Shown piece after piece: positions 2,239 to 50,735 of a stretch of DNA of 52,440 nucleotides. The stretch's first letter is position 1. Every line of letters starts with the position of its first letter. The notes beneath the pieces were generated by a model, which saw only the letters and a list, made by a program, of their open reading frames with translations, ran no database searches and had not been told where the DNA came from. The translations under genes and the position numbers were made by a program. This stretch comes from Alphaproteobacteria bacterium. Its GTDB lineage: Bacteria > Pseudomonadota > Alphaproteobacteria > Rickettsiales > SXRF01. The stretch is from assembly GCA_009926845.1 (NCBI GenBank), contig RFOF01000003.1:1-52440 (forward strand). Reading direction: 5' to 3'.

Positions 2239-3579
2239 ATGCCAAAAATACATCAGAAGAAAATAGTATGGCTGCTATGCGCCACCATCTTGTCCAGCCA
2301 GCCCGTATTCGCACAAGACGCAGCGAAGCCGGAAACCAATAATACCCCTGCGGCGGTTGCCGCTGTGCCTCAAAAGATCACGGGCTTCACGCTGGATGAT
2401 GCGATTGCCAAAGCACTCTTGCAATCACCGCGCCTTAAAGGATTCAACAGTGGTGTTTCCGCTGCCAAGGGCGAAGAAAGACAGGCGGGTGCATGGGTAA
2501 ACCCTGAAGTGGGTGTGGAAGCCGAAAATGTCGCAGGACAAGGCGCATATAAAGGCTTCGACTCAGCAGAAGTAACCTACGGGGTCACGCAGGAAATTAC
2601 CATCGGTGGGAAGATTTCAGCACGCGAAGGCATTGCGGGCAAAGGGGTAGAAATCGCATCACTTGAAGCGCAAGGGGCAGCGCTGGATGTGATTCGTGAT
2701 GTGACCAGTGCCTATGCCGATGTAGTGGCAGCGGAAGAAAATGTGCGTCTTGCCACGGAACAGAAAGAACTGGCCGAGGATGTGTTGAAATCGGTCAGCG
2801 TGCGCGTGGGGGCTGCTGCTGCACCGCTGATTCAGAAAAGCCGCGCAGAGGTGGAACGCTCAACCGCCACCATCGCACTCGATAAGGCAATCCGCGAGCG
2901 TGACATTACGCGCAAGAAGCTGGCCTCGCTGATGGGTGAAGAAGCCTTCACGCTACCGCTTGATACCACTGCCTTCTTCGCCATTACCAAGCCAGAACTC
3001 CCCGCTTTGGAGGAGAAGCTGAAAGCAAATCCGGATATTTTAAAGCTCAATAGCAGCCTAGAGCAATCCAAGGCGCGGCTTGATCTGGAGCAAGCAAATG
3101 CCATTCCCGATCCACGTCTTAGCGTAGGTGTTCGTGATTTCCGCGATAGTGGCGATCAGGCGTTTTTAGTGGGTGTATCGCTACCGATTCCCGTGTTTAA
3201 CGCTAACCGTGGCAATATCGAGAAAGCACGGAGTGACGTAAGCCGCGCCGAACTGGATAACCGCCAGATGGTGCTTGATGTTGGTGCGGAGCTAACGAGC
3301 GCACATGAACGGATGCAAAATGCCTATGTTCAAGCTGAAACGCTAAAAACCGAAATTCTTCCTTCTGCCGATAAAGCCTTCCGTTTGGCGCGTGAGGGCT
3401 ATGGATCGGGACGTTTTCCCTATCTCGAAGTGCTGGATGCGCAACGCAGTCTATTTGGAGTAAAGCAGCAACGCATCGAAGCTATACGAGAATTTCATTC
3501 AGCCAAAGCACAGGTGGAGCGGTTAACCGCCATACACTTGGGCAGCATTAAAAATACAGGACAAACTCATGTTGAATAA
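2239..3579 (+). CDS. czcC: TolC-family outer membrane protein, CzcC-like
   Basis: 446 aa, signal peptide, outer-membrane efflux protein pattern; adjacent to czcB- and czcA-like genes. Confidence 0.85.
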   Translation: MPKIHQKKIVWLLCATILSSQPVFAQDAAKPETNNTPAAVAAVPQKITGFTLDDAIAKALLQSPRLKGFNSGVSAAKGEERQAGAWVNPEVGVEAENVAGQGAYKGFDSAEVTYGVTQEITIGGKISAREGIAGKGVEIASLEAQGAALDVIRDVTSAYADVVAAEENVRLATEQKELAEDVLKSVSVRVGAAAAPLIQKSRAEVERSTATIALDKAIRERDITRKKLASLMGEEAFTLPLDTTAFFAITKPELPALEEKLKANPDILKLNSSLEQSKARLDLEQANAIPDPRLSVGVRDFRDSGDQAFLVGVSLPIPVFNANRGNIEKARSDVSRAELDNRQMVLDVGAELTSAHERMQNAYVQAETLKTEILPSADKAFRLAREGYGSGRFPYLEVLDAQRSLFGVKQQRIEAIREFHSAKAQVERLTAIHLGSIKNTGQTHVE

Positions 3580-4711
3580 ACGAAAATTGATATTCTTACT
3601 TGCGTTGCTAGGAATTGCTGGTGGCGTTTACATGTATCGAGAGTCAGCGCATGATAATAAAACTGCACCACAAAGTGCAGAGAATCATGGGCACGGCGAT
3701 GCCGATGAACATGGTCACGGCAAAGAACATAAAGACGATCACGCTGAAGGTGGCGAACATGGCCACGGCGATAAGGATGAACATGCCCACGCTCCGGAAG
3801 CTAAGGGTGCGGATGAACATGGTCACGACCACGAAGAAGCCAAACCTGCCGATGAGCATGGGCATGGTGGACATGGCGAGGAAGGCGGTCATGCGGAAGA
3901 GAGCAAAATTAGCGACACTGCTGCAAAAAATCTGAATATCGAAGTGATGGAAGCTAGTAGTGGCAAAGTACAGGAAACGGTAAGTGTTTCTGGCCGTGTA
4001 ACGCTGAACCAGAATACCACCGCGCAGGTGAAAGCACGCTTCCCCGGAATTATTCGCAGCGTGGTAAAAGAACCTGGAGAAATGGTCAAAGCGGGTGACA
4101 CGCTGGCTACCGTAGAAAGCAATGATTCTCTGCAAGTCTATGCTGTGAAGTCGCCTGTTTCCGGCACCATTATCACCCGCAATGCGAATGTGGGCGAACT
4201 TGCGGCGGATGCACCACTGTTTGTGGTAGCGGATTTAGGCAAGCTATGGGCGGAGTTATTCATTTTCTCGAAAGACGGAGAAAAGCTGAAAGCGGGTCAA
4301 AAAGTCCACATTCAATGTCTGGATGACAATATAAATACCGAATCCACGATTGCGCTGGTGCTGCCCACTGCCGAAGCCTCCAGCCAAACCGTGGTGGCGC
4401 GTGCGGTGATTGAAAACGACGATAACCACTGGCGTTCGGGTATGAACATCCGTGCCGATGTTGTGCTGACGGAAAAGGAAGTGCCGCTGGTTGTAAAAAC
4501 TGAGGCCATCCAGCGCATGGAAGGCAACAACGTGGTGTTCGTGCAGGAAGAAGGTGGTGTGTACAAAGCACAGCCAGTCGAGCTTGGCGCATCCGATGCA
4601 ACATGGACGGAAATCAAAAGCGGTCTGAATGCAGGCCAGCACTATGTAGCCAAAAACAGTTTTGTGGTAAAAGCAGACATCGGCAAGGCTGGTGCGGAAC
4701 ACGAACATTGA
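3569..4711 (+). CDS. czcB: RND efflux periplasmic adaptor, CzcB-like, with His-rich N-terminal tract
   Basis: Adaptor motifs (RFPGIIRSVVKEPGEMVKAGDTLATVESNDSLQVYAVKSPVSGTI); (D)EHGHG repeats. Confidence 0.9.
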   Translation: MLNKRKLIFLLALLGIAGGVYMYRESAHDNKTAPQSAENHGHGDADEHGHGKEHKDDHAEGGEHGHGDKDEHAHAPEAKGADEHGHDHEEAKPADEHGHGGHGEEGGHAEESKISDTAAKNLNIEVMEASSGKVQETVSVSGRVTLNQNTTAQVKARFPGIIRSVVKEPGEMVKAGDTLATVESNDSLQVYAVKSPVSGTIITRNANVGELAADAPLFVVADLGKLWAELFIFSKDGEKLKAGQKVHIQCLDDNINTESTIALVLPTAEASSQTVVARAVIENDDNHWRSGMNIRADVVLTEKEVPLVVKTEAIQRMEGNNVVFVQEEGGVYKAQPVELGASDATWTEIKSGLNAGQHYVAKNSFVVKADIGKAGAEHEH

Positions 4712-4729
4712 TCGTGAGGAACCAAAGCC

Positions 4730-7700
4730 ATGATTGAACGTATTTTAAGTTTCTCACTGCACCATCGCTATTTGATTGCACTGCTTACAGCTGCGGTGGC
4801 GGCGTTTGGGATTTATTCACTAAAAAATCTACCGATTGATGCCGTGCCGGACATCACCAACAATCAAGTGCAGATCAACAGCGTAGCGACTGCTTTTTCT
4901 CCGATGGAAGTGGAGAAACAAGTCACTTTCCCCGTAGAAACCGCACTCGCAGGAATTCCCGGACTTGAGTATACACGCTCGATTTCGCGCAACGGATTCT
5001 CTCAGGTCACGGCGGTATTTAATGATAATGTGGATATTTACTTTGCCCGCGCACAGGTAAATGAGCGCATTGCTGAAGCGAAAGAAAGCCTGCCCGAAGG
5101 CGTTGACCCGAAGATGGGTGCAATCTCGACCGGCCTTGGCGAGATTTATATGTGGACGGTGGAATACGAGCATCCACAAGGCAAAGGCGCAACCATTAAA
5201 GACGGACAAGCGGGCTGGCAATCGGATGGGAGTTACTTAACGCCCGAAGGCCAGCGGCTTAAAACCGATGTCGAGCAAGCCTCCTACCTTCGCACCGTGC
5301 AAGACTGGATTATCCGCCCGCAGTTGAAAGGCGTAAAGGGCGTGGCTGGTGTTGATGCGATTGGTGGCTATGTGAAACAATATCATGTGCAACCCAACCC
5401 CGAAAAGCTGGTGGCACTTGGCTTGAGTTTCTCGGATGTGGTGGATGTGTTGGAGCGCAACAACGCAAGTATTGGCGCGGGCTACATCGAAAAAAGCGGT
5501 GAAGCCTATGTGGTGAGGGCGGATGGACGTATTGAGAACGCCGAACAGATTGGCAATATCGTGGTGGCGAATCGCGGTGGTATCATTATCTACCTAAAAG
5601 ACATCGCCATCGTAGGTATTGGCAAGGAACTTCGCACTGGCTCTGCTTCCGAAAATGGCAATGAAGTGGTGGTGGGAACCGCTTTGATGCTGATTGGCGA
5701 GAATAGCCGCACCGTATCCGAAGCGGTGGATCAGAAAATCACGGAAGTGAATAAATCCCTGCCTGTTGGCATCCACGCCAAAACAGTGCTCAATCGTACA
5801 AAGCTGGTAGATCGCACGATTGGCACGGTGCAGAAGAACTTAGCCGAAGGTGCGCTACTGGTCATTGTGATTCTGTTTCTATTGCTCGGTAACTTCCGCG
5901 CTGCGCTGATTACGGCGCTGGTGATTCCGCTTTCTATGTTGATGACGAGCATGGGCATGATCCGCGCAGGTATCAGCGGAAACCTGATGAGTTTGGGTGC
6001 GCTCGATTTCGGATTGATTGTGGATGGCGCGGTGATTATCACCGAAAACTGCCTGAGCCGATTGGCACATCGCCAGCACCACGAAGGCCGCACACTGACA
6101 TTGCAAGAAAGGCTGCATGAGGTAATGGTTGCCAGCCGTGAGATGATTCAGCCTTCCGTGTTCGGTCAGGCGATTATCATCATGGTGTATATCCCGCTGC
6201 TCACGTTCAGCGGCGTGGAAGGTAAGATGTTTGAGCCGATGGCAATGACAGTCATCTTCGCGCTGATTGCCGCCTTCGTGCTTTCGCTTACTTTCGTTCC
6301 AGCCATGATTGCGATTTTCGTGAAAGGCAAAGTGGAAGAAAAAGAAAGCCGCATCATCACGAAAACCAAAAGCTGGTATGAACCTGCGCTGCATTATGCC
6401 CTGCAATCCCCGATGAAAATCATCGCAGCGGCAACGGGTGGGTTTGTGTTTTCATTGGTACTGTTTTCTACAATGGGACAAGAGTTCATCCCAACGCTCG
6501 ATGAGAAAGACATCGCCATGCACGCGATGCGGATTCCATCCACATCGCTTTCTCAATCGCAGGAATTGCAGTTTGTAGTAGAAAAAGCGGTGAGCAGCGT
6601 GCCAGAAGTGGGGTTCGTATTCTCCAAAACGGGTACGGCGGAAATGGCCTCCGACCCCATGCCACCGAACGTATCCGACACCTTCATTATCCTAAAGGAT
6701 AAAGATCAGTGGCCTGATTCCAGTGCCACCAAAGAGGAGGTGTTGAGCAAAATCAGCAAAGCGGTTTCCGATGTTCCGGGGAATAATTACGAATTCACCC
6801 AGCCGATTCAGATGCGCTTCAACGAGCTGATTTCCGGTGTGCGTTCCGATGTGGCGGTGAAAGTGTACGGCGATGATTTTGCCACAATGGAAAAAACCGC
6901 CGCTGAAATTGTGAGCGCGCTTAAAACCATCGAAGGCTCGGCGGATGTGAAAATGGAGCAAACGAGCGGCCTTCCCATGCTGGAAGTAAAGCTCGATAAA
7001 AACGCCATTGCGCGTTATGGCCTCAATGTCAGCGATGTGCTGGATGTGCTGGCGATTGCCGTGGGTGGGCGCGAGGCTGGGTTGGTGTTCCAAGGGGATC
7101 GCCGGTTTGACATTCTAGTGCGGTTGCCAGACACCATGCGGCAGGATTTAACCGTGCTTGAGAATCTGCCTATCCTGCTTTCTGCCGATGATGACAACAT
7201 GGCGGATCGCATCGCTAACCAGCCGCACAATCGTCCCGCCTATATTCCGCTGAAGCAGGTGGCGAAGCTGGAAATCACGGACGGACCCAACCAGATCAGC
7301 CGTGAAAACGGCAAGCGGCGCGTGGTGGTGCAATCCAACGTGCGTGGGCGCGACATCGGCTCTTTCGTCGAAAACGCGCAAGCGGCGATTGATTCCAAAG
7401 TGAAGATTCCCGCTGGTTATTGGCTGGAATGGGGCGGACAATTCAAAAACTTGCAGGAAGCCAAAGCGCGGCTGGCCATGGTGGTTCCTGCATGCTTCTT
7501 CATGATTTTCCTGCTGCTGTTTACCGCGCTTGGCTCGGTGAAACAAGCGCTCTTGGTGTTCTCTGGCGTGCCGCTGGCACTCACGGGCGGCATTATTACC
7601 TTGTGGCTACGCGGGATGCCGTTTTCGATTTCGGCGGCGGTGGGCTTGATTGCGCTTTCTGGTGTGGCCGTGCTTAACGGACTCGTGATGATTACGCGCA

Positions 7701-7978
7701 TTAACCAACTGGTGCGTGAGGGCATCGAGGAGCACAAAGCCATCGTGGAAGGTGCGCTCTCCCGATTCCGCCCCGTGCTGATGACTGCACTGGTAGCAAG
7801 CCTTGGCTTCGTGCCAATGGCGATTGCCACAGGCGCGGGCGCAGAGGTGCAAAAACCGCTGGCAACAGTGGTCATCGGCGGACTCATCACCGCAACGATT
7901 CTGACGTTGCTGGTGCTGCCCGCCATTTACAAACGGTTCAACCTAGCCCGCGACCTGTTGGCAAAAGAGGAGCTGTGA
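4730..7978 (+). CDS. czcA: Heavy-metal efflux RND transporter, CzcA family (HME)
   Basis: 1082 aa; DFGLIVDGAVIITEN motif typical of the Zn/Co/Cd HME1 class; N-terminal LPIDAVPDITNNQVQINS. Confidence 0.92.
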   Translation: MIERILSFSLHHRYLIALLTAAVAAFGIYSLKNLPIDAVPDITNNQVQINSVATAFSPMEVEKQVTFPVETALAGIPGLEYTRSISRNGFSQVTAVFNDNVDIYFARAQVNERIAEAKESLPEGVDPKMGAISTGLGEIYMWTVEYEHPQGKGATIKDGQAGWQSDGSYLTPEGQRLKTDVEQASYLRTVQDWIIRPQLKGVKGVAGVDAIGGYVKQYHVQPNPEKLVALGLSFSDVVDVLERNNASIGAGYIEKSGEAYVVRADGRIENAEQIGNIVVANRGGIIIYLKDIAIVGIGKELRTGSASENGNEVVVGTALMLIGENSRTVSEAVDQKITEVNKSLPVGIHAKTVLNRTKLVDRTIGTVQKNLAEGALLVIVILFLLLGNFRAALITALVIPLSMLMTSMGMIRAGISGNLMSLGALDFGLIVDGAVIITENCLSRLAHRQHHEGRTLTLQERLHEVMVASREMIQPSVFGQAIIIMVYIPLLTFSGVEGKMFEPMAMTVIFALIAAFVLSLTFVPAMIAIFVKGKVEEKESRIITKTKSWYEPALHYALQSPMKIIAAATGGFVFSLVLFSTMGQEFIPTLDEKDIAMHAMRIPSTSLSQSQELQFVVEKAVSSVPEVGFVFSKTGTAEMASDPMPPNVSDTFIILKDKDQWPDSSATKEEVLSKISKAVSDVPGNNYEFTQPIQMRFNELISGVRSDVAVKVYGDDFATMEKTAAEIVSALKTIEGSADVKMEQTSGLPMLEVKLDKNAIARYGLNVSDVLDVLAIAVGGREAGLVFQGDRRFDILVRLPDTMRQDLTVLENLPILLSADDDNMADRIANQPHNRPAYIPLKQVAKLEITDGPNQISRENGKRRVVVQSNVRGRDIGSFVENAQAAIDSKVKIPAGYWLEWGGQFKNLQEAKARLAMVVPACFFMIFLLLFTALGSVKQALLVFSGVPLALTGGIITLWLRGMPFSISAAVGLIALSGVAVLNGLVMITRINQLVREGIEEHKAIVEGALSRFRPVLMTALVASLGFVPMAIATGAGAEVQKPLATVVIGGLITATILTLLVLPAIYKRFNLARDLLAKEEL

Positions 7979-43515: not shown

Positions 43516-43575
43516 GGCAACCTTGCAACCTTATGTTATCGTTGTAAATTATTTTTGTTTGCAGGTCGAATTTTG

Positions 43576-43603
43576 TGGACGGTCAAGGTTACTAGGATAG
43601 GAT
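43576..43603 (+). promoter_or_regulatory. Early promoter A: TGGACG-N16-TAGGAT
   Basis: Shared spacing and sequence with promoters at 46507 and 49630. Confidence 0.65.
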
Positions 43604-43623: not shown

Positions 43624-43636
43624 ACTACCACAACCA
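43624..43636 (+). promoter_or_regulatory. Leader motif copy A (ACTACCACAACCA)
   Basis: Followed by AAACCAAGGAGAACAAAATG. Confidence 0.8.
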
Positions 43637-43653: not shown

Positions 43654-45525
43654 ATGCAAACAATTCAGTTAAGTAACCTTAGTGTTTCCAAGCACTTCAA
43701 CGTCAGGAAAACTGACACGAAGAAGGGTTTGGATGAACTCACTTCCAGCATCGCCGCGCATGGCTTGCTGGAAAATCTCATCGTCATCAAAACGAAAGAG
43801 AAAAATAAATTTGAAGTCGTTGCAGGTGGTCGCCGCTTAACTGCGCTGCACTTATTGCAGAAGCAAGGAAAGCTGCCGAAAACCCATGCAGTAAACTGCC
43901 AAATTGTCGAAGAAGATAAGGCTGAGGAAATCAGCCTTGCCGAAAACGTTGTGCGCTCACATATGCACCCAGCCGATCAGTTTGAAGCATGGGCGAAGTT
44001 GTCGAAAGAAATGTCCATTACCGATATTGCCGCTCGGTTCGGTGTCGCAGAAATCACCGTAGAGCAGCGCTTAAAACTTGGCCGTGTATCGCCTAAACTG
44101 ATGAAAGCCTATCGTGATGAAGAGTTGTCACTGGAAAGTCTGATGGCGTTCACCATTACGGATGACCATGCCAAGCAAGAAGATGTGTTCAAGCAATTCA
44201 AAGACAGCTGGCAAATCAGACAGCCAAACACAATCCGCAGCGCACTCACGGAAACGATGGTGCGCGGTGATGACAAGCTGGCAAAATTTGTTGGGCTCGA
44301 CACCTATAAATTGGCAGGCGGTGCATTCCGCACTGATTTATTTGGTGAGCGCGATTCTTTCTATCTCGAAGATCTGTCACTGCTTCATGAGCTGGCAGAA
44401 GAAAAGCTCAATAAGGTTGCAGCTCCGTTGAAAGAAAAGTGGAAATGGGTTGAAATCTGCCTCGAATTTGGTTGGGAGGATAAACAGCAGTATGGTCGCT
44501 TTCATCCACACCAGATTGGCGAGATTCCAAAGAAGTTGCTGAAACAACAAGAAGTGCTGGAAAGCAAAATGGAAGAAATGGATGCAGCCGAGGATTATGA
44601 CGACGATGCAGCTGACGCACTTCGTAAGGAGCAAGAAGAGCTGGAAGCGAAATTGGCAGAATATTCTGGCTTTACCGAAGAAGAGCGTGCTTCGTCGGGC
44701 TGTGTCATCACCATTCAGCATAATGGCACGGTAGAAATCTTGGAGGGCATGATTCATCCCGATGATAAAAAAGCTGCTGCCAAGTCTGCCAACAGCACCG
44801 AAGGTGCAAACGTCAGCAATACTGCCAAGCATACGATGCCCTATAGCCAGGCACTGGTTGACCGCTTGAAAAACTACCGCCTGCAGGTCGAGCGTCCGTA
44901 TATGGCGCAGAACTTTGAGGTGGCGTTTGATGCAACGGTTTACATGATGTGCCTGCGCAGCCTGAATTCCGCTCATAGCTACTACTACGGCAAGGATTGG
45001 CTGCGGGTGAAGCCAGAAAACTATCACTTCCCTCATCTCATGGTGTCTGAGGATGAAACAGGCACGGCATTGCACAGTGAAGAAGAAAAACTCTTTGCCA
45101 GCTTGCCGCTTGCATGGATGAACATCAAGGACGAAGGCGAGAAATTCAAAGCCTTCTGCGAGTTGTCCTTGGAAGTGAAACAACGGCTATTCGCCGCTTG
45201 TGTTTCCCGCTCGCTCATGCCGCAGCTGTCCATCGAGGATAAGCCTTCGCCAGTTGCCGAAGCGGTGTTCAAACGCTTGGATATTGATGTGGCGAAGCAT
45301 TGGCGGCCGAGCCAAACCAACTTCTTTGACCGCGTGACGAAGAAAGATGTGCTGGAAATTGGCGAACACATCTTTGGTGAAGTATGGGCAAAGGAACAAG
45401 GCAAAAAGCCGAAAGGTGATGTGGTTGCGGTGCTGCATGGCGCATTTGCCAATCCTGACCAGCCGCAGTTTACGCCGGAGCAACAAGCCAAGCTGAAAAC
45501 GTGGCTGCCGAAAGGCATGGCGTAA
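43654..45525 (+). CDS. ParB/RepB/Spo0J-family protein (large, 623 aa)
   Basis: ATG at 43654 after AAGGAGAA; GLLENLIVIKTKEKNKFEVVAGGRRLTALHLL; SLAENVVRSHMHPADQFEAWAKL. Confidence 0.85.
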   Translation: MQTIQLSNLSVSKHFNVRKTDTKKGLDELTSSIAAHGLLENLIVIKTKEKNKFEVVAGGRRLTALHLLQKQGKLPKTHAVNCQIVEEDKAEEISLAENVVRSHMHPADQFEAWAKLSKEMSITDIAARFGVAEITVEQRLKLGRVSPKLMKAYRDEELSLESLMAFTITDDHAKQEDVFKQFKDSWQIRQPNTIRSALTETMVRGDDKLAKFVGLDTYKLAGGAFRTDLFGERDSFYLEDLSLLHELAEEKLNKVAAPLKEKWKWVEICLEFGWEDKQQYGRFHPHQIGEIPKKLLKQQEVLESKMEEMDAAEDYDDDAADALRKEQEELEAKLAEYSGFTEEERASSGCVITIQHNGTVEILEGMIHPDDKKAAAKSANSTEGANVSNTAKHTMPYSQALVDRLKNYRLQVERPYMAQNFEVAFDATVYMMCLRSLNSAHSYYYGKDWLRVKPENYHFPHLMVSEDETGTALHSEEEKLFASLPLAWMNIKDEGEKFKAFCELSLEVKQRLFAACVSRSLMPQLSIEDKPSPVAEAVFKRLDIDVAKHWRPSQTNFFDRVTKKDVLEIGEHIFGEVWAKEQGKKPKGDVVAVLHGAFANPDQPQFTPEQQAKLKTWLPKGMA

Positions 45526-45589: not shown

Positions 45590-45605
45590 ACTACCACAAC
45601 CTCCC
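45590..45605 (+). promoter_or_regulatory. Leader motif copy F (ACTACCACAACCTCCC), degenerate context
   Basis: Matches ACTACCACAACC; followed by CCTCC-CATAA-GGAGG. Confidence 0.5.
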
Positions 45606-45669
45606 ATAAGGAGGCCGTGGACGCATTATGACTTGATTTTTTAGAAGCGCAATAACCAGCGGAGTTTTT

Positions 45670-46461
45670 ATGAGTAAACCCATTGCCGACAGCGGCAAAG
45701 CCTTTCGCACGTCCTTTGACAGATTATGTTATCGCCGTAATTGGCATGACGCATTTCGTGATTTTATTGAAATTGCTGCCTGCACAATCCACCAGCAACC
45801 CTATCATTTGGGCTTGCTGGAGAAAGACGAAGATTATGAGCGTATCGAAGAGCTCTATCTTTCGACCATTAAGAAATATAACTGAGAGGAAATTGACCAG
45901 ATTGTTGCCCTTTACGGCATCTCGGTGATTGCGCTGCGCAGTACGCAGGAAGATTTCCTTGGCGAGCAGTATATGCAGCTGGAAATAAGCAATAAACACA
46001 ATGGCGAGTTTTTCTCGCCCAGCAATATCAGCCGCATGATGGCGAAAATTCAAATGAGCGGCATAGGAGAGCTGATTAAGGCGAAAGGCTATGTGACCCT
46101 CCAAGAACCCGCTTGCGGTGCTGGCGTGATGGTTATTGAGGCGGCAAACGCCCTGCGTGATGAAGGACATGATCCGCGCTGCACGATGCTGTTTCAGGCA
46201 ATAGACATAAACCGCACCTGTTTCAACATGGCGTATTTTCAGTTAGCTGCGCTGGAATTGCCAGGCGTTGTCATTCATGGCGATACGCTGCGCATGGAGC
46301 ATTGGGATAAACGCTCAACACCGCAATGGAAGCTCATGCAGCAACATGGTGTATCAGGCAACTTACTGCCTGCATTTGAACTGCCGCCACGACCAGAGCC
46401 AGAGCCGCAAATTGCTATGCCGCCACCGCAACAAACCGCCCAGTTTATGTTTGAATTTTAA
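45670..46461 (+). pseudogene. N6-adenine DNA methyltransferase-like gene interrupted by in-frame TGA (45883-45885)
   Basis: Same-frame ORFs 45670..45885 and 45925..46461; readthrough gives ...STIKKYN*EEIDQIVALYGISVIALRSTQEDFLGEQYMQLEISNKHNGEFFSPSNISRMMAK...LQEPACGAGVMVIEAA. Confidence 0.65.
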
Positions 46462-46506
46462 GGGCAAATAATATGCTGAAAAACCGTGATTTTCTGCCGA
46501 TTTTTG

Positions 46507-46534
46507 TGGACGGTCACTATCTTAAAGTTAGAAT
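46507..46534 (+). promoter_or_regulatory. Early promoter B: TGGACG-N16-TAGAAT
   Basis: Exact 16-nt spacing; 6 nt later the leader motif starts. Confidence 0.7.
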
Positions 46535-46540
46535 GTTTTT

Positions 46541-46555
46541 ACTACCACAACCACC
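46541..46555 (+). promoter_or_regulatory. Leader motif copy B (ACTACCACAACCACC)
   Basis: Followed by AACCAAACCAAAGGAGAGCAACGATG. Confidence 0.85.
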
Positions 46556-46578
46556 AACCAAACCAAAGGAGAGCAACG

Positions 46579-46911
46579 ATGACAGAGGAATTAATACAGC
46601 TAAATGAGGATGAATTTAACGAGCAGTTTCCGCTCGTGCATAATCATCTCAACCCCAGTGCAGGCTGGGTTTATATTTCAGAAAACGATGCCGATCAGCG
46701 CGGCTGCCTGTTTGAAACTTACGGGGCAGAATATGAATTTGTGGTCAGGCAAGACCCACGCTGCATTTGGACGCTGATGGATAATAACGACGGCGAGCCA
46801 CCATTTCTTGCCAGTGGATGCCGATGGGTAAATCGCCTCGGCTACCTGATTAGCAAAGTGCCAGTGCCAGAAGGCAAGACCATCGAAGTGGCTTTGCCAG
46901 ACTGGAAATAG
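46579..46911 (+). CDS. Hypothetical protein (110 aa)
   Basis: ATG at 46579 with GGAGAG; promoter B and leader upstream. Confidence 0.7.
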   Translation: MTEELIQLNEDEFNEQFPLVHNHLNPSAGWVYISENDADQRGCLFETYGAEYEFVVRQDPRCIWTLMDNNDGEPPFLASGCRWVNRLGYLISKVPVPEGKTIEVALPDWK

Positions 46912-47007
46912 CCTAACCAACCCAACCAATGAGCCGTTGTGACCGCCGCCAAAGCAGCGGGTGGAAAATTGCGGCCTGAATTTGAAACATTAACAGGAGA
47001 ACAGATT

Positions 47008-47595
47008 ATGAAACCAGGACAGATAACTCACTACCAAGATATGACGGTGCTTGAATTCCCTCAGGAGGAATATCGCGGCTACCGCATCGTGCAATTTGAG
47101 GCGCAGAATTTCAGCGTCTATCACATGAGCAATATCCGACAGCGTGTGTGGGAAGCGCATACAGAGGCAGACTGCAAAAAATGGATTGATAGTCAGGTTG
47201 ACCGCCTAAGTGCCAACAAACTTGCGCGCAGCTTCCTTGAAGTTGCCTCTCGCCCAGTCGCATACGATGCAGAAGCAAAGGAGCAATTCCACCGACGCGG
47301 CAAAGCACTGCTAAAACAAATTGCCTGCGATTTGGGTTATGCCAAGGGCAGTTTCGATCTGCGAAACAACAAGGCAGGCATCGCGGTCAGCGGTGAAGTC
47401 ACTCTGCATACCGATGATTTGTATGTGCAGTTAGCACAAGGAAGTTGCGGTAGCGACCTTCAAATTCTCTACCGCTCATGCAAGCACCGCCGCGATTACA
47501 CAGGCGGAAGCAACAACTGGATGAGCTTTGCCCACCTCCGCAATTATGAAACCGTTTTAGAGCGGTTAAAAAACGCCAAGAGAAAGGCGGATTAA
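47008..47595 (+). CDS. Hypothetical protein (about 195 aa)
   Basis: ATG at 47008 after AGGAGAACAGATT. Confidence 0.65.
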   Translation: MKPGQITHYQDMTVLEFPQEEYRGYRIVQFEAQNFSVYHMSNIRQRVWEAHTEADCKKWIDSQVDRLSANKLARSFLEVASRPVAYDAEAKEQFHRRGKALLKQIACDLGYAKGSFDLRNNKAGIAVSGEVTLHTDDLYVQLAQGSCGSDLQILYRSCKHRRDYTGGSNNWMSFAHLRNYETVLERLKNAKRKAD

Positions 47596-47641
47596 TGGTG
47601 TATAAGCTATTGATATTTATAGTTATATATGCCGATTTTCC

Positions 47642-47669
47642 TTTACATAAAAGGTAAAAAAGCTAGAAT
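47642..47669 (+). promoter_or_regulatory. Early promoter C: TTTACA-N16-TAGAAT
   Basis: Leader motif begins 7 nt after the -10. Confidence 0.65.
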
Positions 47670-47676
47670 AATTTTC

Positions 47677-47691
47677 ACTACCACAACCACC
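47677..47691 (+). promoter_or_regulatory. Leader motif copy C (ACTACCACAACCACC)
   Basis: Followed by AAACCAAGAGGCAAAAACTATG. Confidence 0.85.
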
Positions 47692-47710
47692 AAACCAAGA
47701 GGCAAAAACT

Positions 47711-48100
47711 ATGTGCATTTACAAAGAACATTACGAACGAATACTCAGTGTATTTCCTGCGGTTGCAGAAAGTGCGGCTCAGGATTGCATCACGATTCCA
47801 ACCAGCCCGATGACTGGCATCATCAAAGTAAAGCAGCGCGGGCAATCCGTGATGCGTCTGGAAATCGGCTTTCATTATCGGCACGGCGAAGAATTGCTGC
47901 CCGACCACAAAATGACCGTGAAACTCGATCTGCATGAGCGCAAAGCAATTCCAGAATCCATCTGGTTCAAATGCCGAGGCACGACGCACACACGTGAGCC
48001 AAAGAAGGGCGTGAATGAGCAGATTCTGAACGTGATGAATAATCGACTTACGAATTGGCTCGGCATCCTTGCCGGCAATGACAACGCAACAATCCACTAA
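47711..48100 (+). CDS. Hypothetical protein, paralog of next gene (DUF6908/DUF1249-like pattern)
   Basis: YKEHYERILSVFPAV...RLEIGFHYRHGEELLPDHKMTVKLDLHERKAIP. Confidence 0.65.
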   Translation: MCIYKEHYERILSVFPAVAESAAQDCITIPTSPMTGIIKVKQRGQSVMRLEIGFHYRHGEELLPDHKMTVKLDLHERKAIPESIWFKCRGTTHTREPKKGVNEQILNVMNNRLTNWLGILAGNDNATIH

Positions 48101-48118
48101 TCAAAACAGGAGCTACCC

Positions 48119-48535
48119 ATGAACATGACAACTATCAGACAATTCAAAGCCAACTATGAACGCATCGTTGCGCTCATACCGAACATTGAGAACATGAAAC
48201 CCGGCGATGCAGGCAAACTCACCGCAGGCGGCTTCATGGATTTACACTATGACGCGCTCGACCGTCGCACGAACCGCTTGGATATTGCGCTGGCGCATTA
48301 CTACAAGCAGAATGGTGATTCAGTGCCAGACCCAGATATGCGCATCTGGCTTGACCTCGAAAAGAAGCTGGCTTTGCCAATGGCGATGCAAGATTTCCTT
48401 GGTTATCGCGAGTGCATTGATGAGAATGACCGCGTCCGTACCAAAGAGCTAGACAGGCAAAGTGCGTTTCTCAGCCAATGGCTGCGGAATTTGAAAGCTC
48501 AAGGTCATACCCTTGCTAACCACGAAGCGGCATAG
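48119..48535 (+). CDS. Hypothetical protein (DUF6908/DUF1249-like pattern)
   Basis: FKANYERIVALIPNI...GGFMDLHYDALDRRTNRLDIALAHYYKQNGDSVPDPDMRIWLDLEKKLALP. Confidence 0.7.
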   Translation: MNMTTIRQFKANYERIVALIPNIENMKPGDAGKLTAGGFMDLHYDALDRRTNRLDIALAHYYKQNGDSVPDPDMRIWLDLEKKLALPMAMQDFLGYRECIDENDRVRTKELDRQSAFLSQWLRNLKAQGHTLANHEAA

Positions 48536-48543
48536 GAGGAGTT

Positions 48544-48966
48544 ATGGCAGATATGTATGGAGCACTTCGCTCAAACTTTTTCAAGGTCAAAGACGTTGAG
48601 AAATTCAAAGAATGGTTTGTGAAATATCACTTCGGTGATGATGTTGAGGTATGGGTAGAAAACGAAACAGAGCGTAGTGTCGGCTTTGGCAGTTATGAGA
48701 TGTACCCTTTTGCTCACCCTCGCATCCATGATGAGGAAGAAGATGAACTGGTTGATGCCGATCTGAATGTGTTTGCAAAAGAGCTATGCGAACACTTGGA
48801 AGCTGGTGAAGTTTTCTCGGTGACTTCTGGCGGAAATGAGAAGTTGCGGTATGTGTCGTATGACCAGCTCATCATCGCACAAGAGCATCCAGACCAACCA
48901 CTTTATGAGTATCGCAGCAGTCAGGATGACAACGATGTTTTGCTTAAAAGAGTCCGTGGTAAATGA
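48544..48966 (+). CDS. Hypothetical acidic protein (140 aa)
   Basis: AGGAGTT SD; codes through without overlap. Confidence 0.65.
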   Translation: MADMYGALRSNFFKVKDVEKFKEWFVKYHFGDDVEVWVENETERSVGFGSYEMYPFAHPRIHDEEEDELVDADLNVFAKELCEHLEAGEVFSVTSGGNEKLRYVSYDQLIIAQEHPDQPLYEYRSSQDDNDVLLKRVRGK

Positions 48967-49009
48967 TTGTTAAGGTACTGAAATTGCTGGATTTGTAATT
49001 TGTTCCTGC

Positions 49010-49015
49010 TATAAT
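49010..49015 (+). promoter_or_regulatory. Early promoter D: TATAAT -10 (weak -35)
   Basis: Leader motif begins 6 nt after the -10. Confidence 0.55.
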
Positions 49016-49021
49016 TTTGCC

Positions 49022-49036
49022 ACTACCACAACCACC
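49022..49036 (+). promoter_or_regulatory. Leader motif copy D (ACTACCACAACCACC)
   Basis: Followed by AAAAAAAGGACGAATATG. Confidence 0.85.
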
Positions 49037-49051
49037 AAAAAAAGGACGAAT

Positions 49052-49465
49052 ATGCAAACCAGCAATTTCTGGAACTATACTGGTTCCGGTCGGATTATCA
49101 TCTCTCGCGGATTCCCCCGCAACCTTGGCGAAGGCTACAGACTTTACCGAGCATTAAACCCAGGCACATGGTTCAACAGCGAAGAATATAAATGCTGTGA
49201 AGAAAAATTTCGTGAGCGTTATTTTCGTGAAATTCTTAAACCGCTCAATCCGCAAAAAGTTTATGACCACCTGCACGAACTGGCAAAAGGTCATGAGCCT
49301 GTGCTGTTATGTTGGGAGAAAGACCCAAGCAAACCAGATGAATGGTGTCACCGCCGCATGGTGGCTGAATGGTTTGAAGAACATCTCGGCGTGAAAGTGC
49401 CAGAGTATGTCGTTGCCAAAAAGCCGAAGGCAAAATCAAAACAAGCATCTTTGTTTGAAGAATAA
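49052..49465 (+). CDS. Hypothetical protein (DUF488-like C-terminal pattern)
   Basis: HEPVLLCWEKDPSKPDEWCHRRMVAEWFEEHLGVKVPE. Confidence 0.65.
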   Translation: MQTSNFWNYTGSGRIIISRGFPRNLGEGYRLYRALNPGTWFNSEEYKCCEEKFRERYFREILKPLNPQKVYDHLHELAKGHEPVLLCWEKDPSKPDEWCHRRMVAEWFEEHLGVKVPEYVVAKKPKAKSKQASLFEE

Positions 49466-49534
49466 TGGAGCGGCTACCGGGACTTGCACCCAGCTGACAA
49501 GGGGGCACCTGTGTCATCCTCTATAGGTCGCCGC
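49466..49534 (-). tRNA. Degenerate/compact tRNA(Gly)-like element (possible anticodon GCC), encoded CCA
   Basis: GCGGCGA...TAGCCGCTCCA (6/7 acceptor pairs), T-arm CTGGG-TGCAAGT-CCCGG, bulged anticodon-like stem with 7-nt loop GTGCCCC; 69 nt, truncated D-arm. Confidence 0.4.
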
Positions 49535-49541
49535 ATAGTAT

Positions 49542-49574
49542 AATGCGCTTTCTGGTTTCTGGAAAGCGCATTTT
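49542..49574 (+). terminator. Terminator hairpin AATGCGCTTTC...GAAAGCGCATT-TTC
   Basis: 11-bp perfect stem; T-rich tail. Confidence 0.7.
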
Positions 49575-49629
49575 CTATTTAAGCTGTTGATTTTATGCGA
49601 ATTATTTTAGTTTCTCAGGTCGAATTTTG

Positions 49630-49657
49630 TGGACGGTAAAGGTCATTTAGATAGGAT
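49630..49657 (+). promoter_or_regulatory. Early promoter E: TGGACG-N16-TAGGAT
   Basis: Shares 22-bp block CAGGTCGAATTTTGTGGACGGT with promoter A. Confidence 0.7.
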
Positions 49658-49677
49658 TTGGATAGGCACTAAAGCCT

Positions 49678-49692
49678 ACTACCACAACCACC
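49678..49692 (+). promoter_or_regulatory. Leader motif copy E (ACTACCACAACCACC)
   Basis: Followed by AAATTAAGGAGAACCCTATG. Confidence 0.85.
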
Positions 49693-49709: not shown

Positions 49710-50735
49710 ATGCCTAAAGCAACCGCCAAGAAAAAAGCTACGTCACCAAAACAAGCCAAGAAAGCCAAGCCTGCGAAAATCACTTGTCTGCACCAAGCCG
49801 CGCCGAACGATGTGATGCAGCAGCTTCCTCTCAATCAGATTTATGCCAACGATGAGCAAGCCCGTAAGCATTTCGATGAAACCGAACTGCGCCAACTTGC
49901 TGCGTCGATTAAGGTGCAAGGTCTGATTAGCCCGATTGTCGTAAGACCTGACGGCACAGGCAAATACATGATTGTTGCTGGTGAGCGTCGCTACCGCGCC
50001 TGCAAACTGCTTGAGCTGGAAAACGTCCAAGTCATCATCAAGCAGCTGTCTGATGCTTCGTTGACAGCGCAGATGATTATCGAGAACTTGCAGCGAGTTG
50101 ATATTTCACCGCTGGAAGAAGCCCGCGCATACCGCAAAGCGATGGATGATTTTGACTTAACGCCAGAGCAGTTAGCAGAAACAGTTGGCATCTTGCAGCC
50201 GTTCCGTGTGCATGACCGCCTGACGCTGTTGAACTTAAAACCTGAATATCAAATCTGTTTGGAGCAAGGGATATTGACACCCACCCAGGCATTTTACCTT
50301 TCAAAGGTTGCTCCTGAATATCAAGACCCATTCTGGCGCATGATCCGCAGCGGTAAAGTTGATAGCAGCGAACTTGCAGCGGTTGCTCAAACTTTTGCCG
50401 ATGCAGGCAACCAGCCTGAATTGTTTCCTGATGTGAAGCTGTCCGAAGAAGAAGTGCGGGCTCTGAAAAGTCTTGAGCAGCATATCGACACGATGGCACT
50501 CACCCTAAACCGCTTTTTCAATAAGGATGGGGAAATGGACATTGTGAAGAAGATCGACCGTATCCGTGCAAGCACGATTGCCGATAAGCTGGGTGCAATG
50601 GGCAAGACTTTAGCAATGGCGCAAAAGAAATTGCTTGAGCCTGTCGCGCAGAAGAAAGTCTTTGATGAATTGAGCGTGGCTGATGATGCGACCGAAAAAG
50701 CCGTTGCTACCGAAGAAGTGCTTGAAGCAGCGTGA
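49710..50735 (+). CDS. ParB/RepB/Spo0J-family partition-like protein
   Basis: ATG at 49710; LRQLAASIKVQGLISPIVVRPDGTGKYMIVAGERRYRACKLL; MIIENLQRVDISPLEEARAYRKAM. Confidence 0.88.
   Translation: MPKATAKKKATSPKQAKKAKPAKITCLHQAAPNDVMQQLPLNQIYANDEQARKHFDETELRQLAASIKVQGLISPIVVRPDGTGKYMIVAGERRYRACKLLELENVQVIIKQLSDASLTAQMIIENLQRVDISPLEEARAYRKAMDDFDLTPEQLAETVGILQPFRVHDRLTLLNLKPEYQICLEQGILTPTQAFYLSKVAPEYQDPFWRMIRSGKVDSSELAAVAQTFADAGNQPELFPDVKLSEEEVRALKSLEQHIDTMALTLNRFFNKDGEMDIVKKIDRIRASTIADKLGAMGKTLAMAQKKLLEPVAQKKVFDELSVADDATEKAVATEEVLEAA

Follow-up and report, generated by a model that had tools for sequence, protein, structure and literature searches.

Early genes of a prophage in an alphaproteobacterial contig carry a short, exactly repeated sequence, ACTACCACAACC, and diverged relatives of the phage carry versions of their own at the same kinds of place. 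Judged from where the copies lie, their constant feature appears to be the translation start of the tagged gene rather than the +1 of its transcript. Known phage regulation is mostly transcriptional; the presence of the same tag on unrelated genes, with its own version in each lineage, suggests instead a phage-wide switch of protein synthesis. The explanation given the most weight, at a little short of an even chance, is that the tag would act as a stretch of unpaired mRNA placed at ribosome-binding sites and read by a phage-encoded RNA-binding translational regulator.

The window, by which is meant the whole 52,440-nucleotide stretch that was analysed, is one contig of a fragmented 1.9-Mb assembly and holds a siphovirus-like prophage at about 15.5-51.2 kb. 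Its late genes (terminase, DUF4055, capsid, tail) lie on the minus strand, and its early region (43.5-50.8 kb), on the plus strand, encodes a ParB-like protein, a methyltransferase, an unknown protein, DUF6908 and DUF488 proteins and a ParB. By the gene order of the relatives L131 and L132, contig C221 carries the next genes of this prophage, including the cro/CI region. The methyltransferase ORF (45670-46461) has an in-frame stop in the window and is intact in the relatives L129 and L130. On the host side of the same contig is an OEP-HlyD-AcrB efflux operon (2239-7978). Throughout, gene starts were taken from the sequence alone, and the genomes used are largely metagenomic, some of them incomplete.

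Six copies of ACTACCACAACC are present in the window, all on the plus strand, in the sense direction and within a span of at most 6.1 kb of the early genes (Table 1); in dinucleotide shuffles, the expected number of exact copies was 0.00 and the largest number 0. The initial annotation had listed five of the six, all of them real, and had overlooked the copy at 45590. It had correctly placed the 15-mer ACTACCACAACCACC 6, 7, and 6 nt after the -10 boxes TAGAAT, TAGAAT, and TATAAT (at 46541, 47677, and 49022), and it had correctly seen the motif somewhat farther from the promoters of the two ParB-like genes. These copies, at 43624 and 49678, lie about 20 nt past the -10 box, and the second in fact holds the full 15-mer. 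The rest of the assembly has one further exact copy, on C221, with a one-mismatch copy adjoining it. The concern that host genomes might contain the motif at a similar density was not borne out, since 89 related genomes of the order hold 9 copies in total, which is background. Consequently, the motif belongs to the phage and not to the host, and no host use of the 12-mer was found in the rest of the assembly or in these 89 genomes. When IMG/VR was scanned for the exact 15-mer, L058, a near-identical contig, was the only one of the loci listed to hold multiple copies, and the single copies seem fortuitous.

Table 1. Copies of the element in the window, with promoter features, hairpins and orthologous copies in related phages
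Feature	Position	Strand	Context	Orthologous copies
Early-promoter element TTTTGTGGACGGT (-35 region)	43571..43583	+	exact recurrence	
Promoter of ParB-like gene	GACGGT 43578-43583, TAGGAT 43598-43603	+		
Mini-hairpin TTGGC/GCCAA	43609-43624		immediately 5' of 43624 element	
Element ACTACCACAACC	43624..43635	+	leader of ParB-like gene 43654-45525	L131:9971, L172:9962, L167:2558
Exact element copy	45590..45601	+	between ParB-like gene and methyltransferase ORF	L131:11939
Early-promoter element TTTTGTGGACGGT	46502..46514	+	exact recurrence	
15-mer element	46541..46555	+	leader of gene 46579-46911; 6 nt past TAGAAT 46529-46534	L131:12886, L172:11908
15-mer element	47677..47691	+	leader of gene 47711-48100; 7 nt past TAGAAT 47664-47669	L131:14178, L172:12619, L167:422
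15-mer element	49022..49036	+	leader of DUF488 gene 49052-49465; 6 nt past TATAAT 49010-49015	L131:16030, L172:13135, L167:1985
Early-promoter element TTTTGTGGACGGT	49625..49637	+	exact recurrence	
Promoter of ParB gene 49710-50735	GACGGT 49632-49637, TAGGAT 49652-49657	+		
Mini-hairpin AGGC/GCCT	49664-49677		5' of 49678 element	
15-mer element	49678..49692	+	leader of ParB gene 49710-50735	L131:17814 (without promoter), L172:13754

The window phage has six copies in UTRs, five of them within the window and one on C221, and in these the motif begins 30-38 nt before the ATG. Its usual place is just 5' of the Shine-Dalgarno sequence (SD), and sometimes it abuts the AUG or falls within the first codons; every copy is in the sense direction, and for nearly all of them the place is 30-38 nt ahead of a gene start, directly at it, or among the first codons. 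It had been claimed that the motif forms the 5' end of the transcripts. This fits the copies adjacent to a promoter, the motif lying at the predicted +1 in three of the six UTR copies, but not the coding-start copies or those with no visible promoter, and such internal and coding-start copies rule out the motif as a general +1 sequence. A hairpin of 4-5 bp precedes each of the two ParB copies, which are about 20 nt past the -10 box. The copy before the second ParB gene (ParB2) of L131, at L131:17814, follows the end of an upstream gene without a visible promoter, and no adjacent promoter is recognisable at L172:11908, L167:835, or L167:16908 either. Furthermore, the cro-like gene begins ATG CGC ACT ACC ACA ACC (in L128, L132, and L133) and the integrase ATG GAA AAC ACT ACC ACA ACC (in L132 and L133; the integrase of the window phage itself is absent from the contigs read), so that the motif is inside the coding sequence. 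Since these unrelated proteins have four identical threonine codons in identical order, it would seem to be the nucleotides rather than the residues that matter. In all, about eight or nine unrelated genes are tagged: early genes, the cro-like gene, the gene that opens the rightward operon after CI, and the integrase.

For the copy at 45590, the prediction is a stem rather than a single strand, and no clear start follows it. In this stretch (45590-45650; L131:11939-12000), the stem after the motif copy pairs the end of the motif and covaries between relatives, CCTCC/GGAGG in one and CCTTCTG/CAGAAGG in another; an attenuator is one possibility here, and a leader peptide or a small RNA in its own right are others.

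The initial annotation held that the leader rather than the promoter is conserved. The leader is, but so are promoters: TTTTGTGGACGGT is exact at three of them, and thus conservation is not restricted to the leader. This common element also implies that cassettes have been copied, and it could then be supposed that recent copying of promoter-leader cassettes has spread a motif that is itself functionless. Of all the readings considered, this one is judged the least probable, given that no such cassette surrounds the copies in cro, int, L131 ParB2, and L172:11908 and that the motif has persisted between flanks that have diverged. Among the relatives found in IMG/VR, L129 and L130 are about 98% identical to the window phage in the ParB-like protein and L131 is 88% identical. 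At nine orthologous sites compared between the window phage and L131 (the integrase pair being L133 versus L132), the element is identical at 106 of 108 positions, against 72% identity in its flanks and 62% at the third positions of codons in the ParB-like gene. The motif itself thus looks to be under purifying selection.

Early promoters of the clade have GACGGT-N14-TAKRAT in common. When this pattern together with the core ACCACAA was sought in IMG/VR, more than one match was obtained only in contigs already known to belong to the clade, and single matches elsewhere were coding sequence. In the diverged phages (L172 and L167), GACGGT at the -35 region reads TTGACGGTAAGGTCA or TTGACGGTCAA; these are dyads that overlap the -35 box, and they may represent a second operator.

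Two such diverged phages are informative. One is a prophage of genome G040, in another family of the same order (GC 36%; ParB-like protein 44% identical), and the other is on contig L172 of genome G347 (GC 40%; ParB-like protein 55% identical to that of the window phage). Both are syntenic with the window phage in structural genes and, where the sequences include them, regulatory genes. Each has a start-site element of its own, TAACCACAATTAACA in G040 and AACCACAAAACC in G347, and the core ACCACAA is common to all three. The element is found at the ParB-like, 47711, and DUF488 genes in both, and in G347 also at the 46579 gene and ParB2. In G040, the integrase begins ATG ACC ACA ATT AAC, again with the element within the coding start. 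In a small sample, in which sites were found using each phage's own consensus, the 3' flanks were 91% identical between different genes of one phage versus 20% between the same gene in different phages. The flanks thus appear to evolve in concert within each phage, as would be expected if all the sites in a phage answered to a single factor of its own, although gene conversion could account for part of it.

Lineage-specific variants of this kind would also track the specificity of a repressor, and it could be argued that the element is an asymmetric DNA operator at which a phage protein blocks or pauses transcription after initiation or at gene starts. As with L5 stoperators (PMC9283540), the copies lack symmetry, point in the direction of transcription and are scattered over the genome of a temperate phage. 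However, they follow start codons, and are even within coding starts, rather than following promoters, and the motif strand is composed only of A and C. In addition, a separate dyad, GTAGCTTTGTTAGCT, makes the better candidate for a repressor operator; it is found at L128:3482-3526 (an imperfect pair in the cro/CI region) and 4663-4679 (before the next operon). These sites are likely CI-type repressor operators distinct from the motif, a copy of which is also near the dyad of the cro/CI region, and because that region holds a different dyad, the motif is the less likely CI operator. Action as a DNA operator is judged rather unlikely.

That the element is a conserved, unstructured 5' UTR sequence of unrelated early genes was confirmed as far as prediction goes: folding predictions leave it unpaired at nearly all sites (mean 0.82 versus 0.60 in shuffled leaders), and Rfam covariance models gave no match in the window at the gathering score. 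An ACA-containing single-stranded element 5' of the SD is thus present by sequence and predicted accessibility, and a simpler alternative is that it is a cis-acting translation enhancer, in which an unstructured A/C-rich leader with ACA would raise ribosome loading with no dedicated reader. The place 5' of the SD, the A/C composition, the one ACA in the core and the predicted single-strandedness all agree with this, as does the finding that ACA motifs enhance translation without strict spacing (PMC3879156); several G040 leaders, moreover, carry the motif without an obvious SD. Yet an enhancer of loose sequence leaves unexplained why 12 bases are invariant in each phage and why the fixed flanks differ between phages. 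No complement in 16S rRNA was found, pairing with it being rejected because duplex energies equalled those of shuffled motifs, and host genes do not use the 12-mer. In host leaders, the pattern ACCACAA + SD + ATG is matched 25 times, 5 of these matches being the phage sites, and the reversed pattern 7 times, an excess that is a weak signal. An enhancer with no reader is therefore regarded as unlikely, if worth keeping in mind. C/A-rich sites 5' of the SD are also typical of targets of GcvB (PMC3879156), and the motif might pair with a small RNA rich in G and U, encoded by the phage or by the host; pairing with an sRNA was among the roles initially suggested. No convincing candidate with at least 10 nt of complementarity emerged: the only such stretches in the phage sequences are the antisense of motif sites and, next to L167:1985, a partial palindrome of 10 nt, the exact 12-nt complement is absent elsewhere in the host assembly, and GcvB was not found in the genome (E. 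coli served as the positive control). Such pairing is very unlikely.

A trans-acting reader of RNA is ranked above both the cis enhancer and the DNA operator. The sense orientation, the position at start codons rather than promoters, the predicted single-strandedness and the copies embedded in codons suggest that the element acts on mRNA when translation is initiated, and the concerted flanks point to a reader encoded by the phage; the concerted change would favour an RNA-binding regulator over an enhancer. In the proposed mechanism, an A/C-rich single-stranded stretch with the core ACCACAA would sit in the translation initiation region of the mRNA and join some eight or nine unrelated genes as one post-transcriptional regulon, and a phage RNA-binding protein would control ribosome loading at all the tagged starts together, rather as T4 RegA does but with much stricter sequence specificity. 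The sequences show the repeats, their conservation, their link to start codons, their lineage-specific flanks and the predicted single-strandedness; we infer that RNA is the target, that a protein is the reader, that translation is affected, and in which direction. An activator or an enhancer would be in keeping with the G040 leaders that lack an obvious SD, and a repressor site with the copies at cro and int. It is possible, though we would put it below an even chance, that the reader represents an undescribed sequence-specific single-strand RNA-binding regulator whose regulon is tagged at ribosome-binding sites, even inside coding starts, and which co-evolves with its tags. Such co-evolution would create a private code for each phage lineage around the common ACCACAA core. 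The 47711 protein was considered as the reader because it is present in all four phages, and it was rejected because by eye it looks like a paralogue of the neighbouring DUF6908 gene. In a Pfam scan that covered part of the phage genes, no protein matched RegA.

The phage family carrying the tag is temperate and rare. The leader repeat is absent from more distant ParB-like phages (28-39% identical) and from the 39-45% relatives of the adjacent methylase-like protein. A close homologue of this protein occurs only in the window genome and G040 among 344 genomes of the order, and in 0 of 384 other genomes drawn from the class; an integrase search of the species genomes gave no match. Several accessory features were also seen. 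The G040 prophage (L167:5700-13943) has, between ParB2 and the replication genes, a heavy-metal-type efflux cassette with, as judged by eye, OEP, HlyD-like, AcrB-like and CDF-like proteins and a CsoR-like regulator; the same slot holds a Fic-like protein in the window phage and in L132. Iteron-like GGTATCNGATAC repeats lie within the reading frame of a replication-type gene in this phage, at L128:75-250 (L007 coordinates), and also, inside such a frame, in G008 (L170:10645-10765); they are a possible candidate for the replication origin.

If the favoured reading, in which an RNA-binding regulator recognises the tag, is true, it would add a second regulatory layer tying together early functions, the cro-like switch and the integrase. 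The natural lineage versions would be ready-made swaps, in which a reporter with the tag of one phage would respond only to the reader of that phage.

Several known systems resemble the element in part. L5-type stoperators of cluster A mycobacteriophages are likewise asymmetric sites repeated across a temperate phage genome (PMC9283540), but they are DNA sites of the immunity repressor, whereas here the CI region has another dyad and the copies follow start codons. The T4 RegA regulon, too, is a phage-wide group of unrelated early mRNAs whose sites are unstructured and lie where translation is initiated, but those sites are A/U-rich and poorly conserved in sequence (PMC3014915), unlike the present element. 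ACA motifs upstream of the SD enhance translation of the yifK and dppA mRNAs, and these enhancer and GcvB sites are similarly A/C-rich with ACA just 5' of the SD at a spacing that is not strict (PMC3879156); they are, however, loose and scattered in the host, and here an exact 12-mer is common to many genes of one phage. The closest arrangement is that of the start-associated sequences (SAS) and their extended form (ESAS) in cluster K mycobacteriophages, whose function is unexplained (PMC3203893, PMC12699233). These sequences and the present element are alike in being short asymmetric repeats of many copies that mostly face one way and mark where translation of unrelated non-structural genes begins in a temperate phage; SAS has about 10-20 copies per phage, and here there are 8-9, sense and at starts. 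ESAS varies between phage subgroups, as the element does between lineages. The 17-bp imperfect inverted repeats of ESAS were found upstream of none of the sites, all of which were read; promoters are there, and 4-5 bp mini-hairpins at two sites only. SAS itself, GGGATAGGAGCCC, contains the Shine-Dalgarno AGGAG and takes its place, whereas the present element is A/C-rich, stands apart from the SD, may be inside coding starts and has lineage-dependent flanks. No version (ACTACCACAACC, AACCACAAAACC, or TAACCACAATTAACA) comes within two deviations of the SAS sequence with SD included, the SD being downstream. Because the SAS consensus contains the SD and the element does not, the arrangement is SAS-like but the element is not a member. 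For the same reason, its separation from the Shine-Dalgarno sequence, the function of the mycobacteriophage start-associated sequences would become easier to approach.
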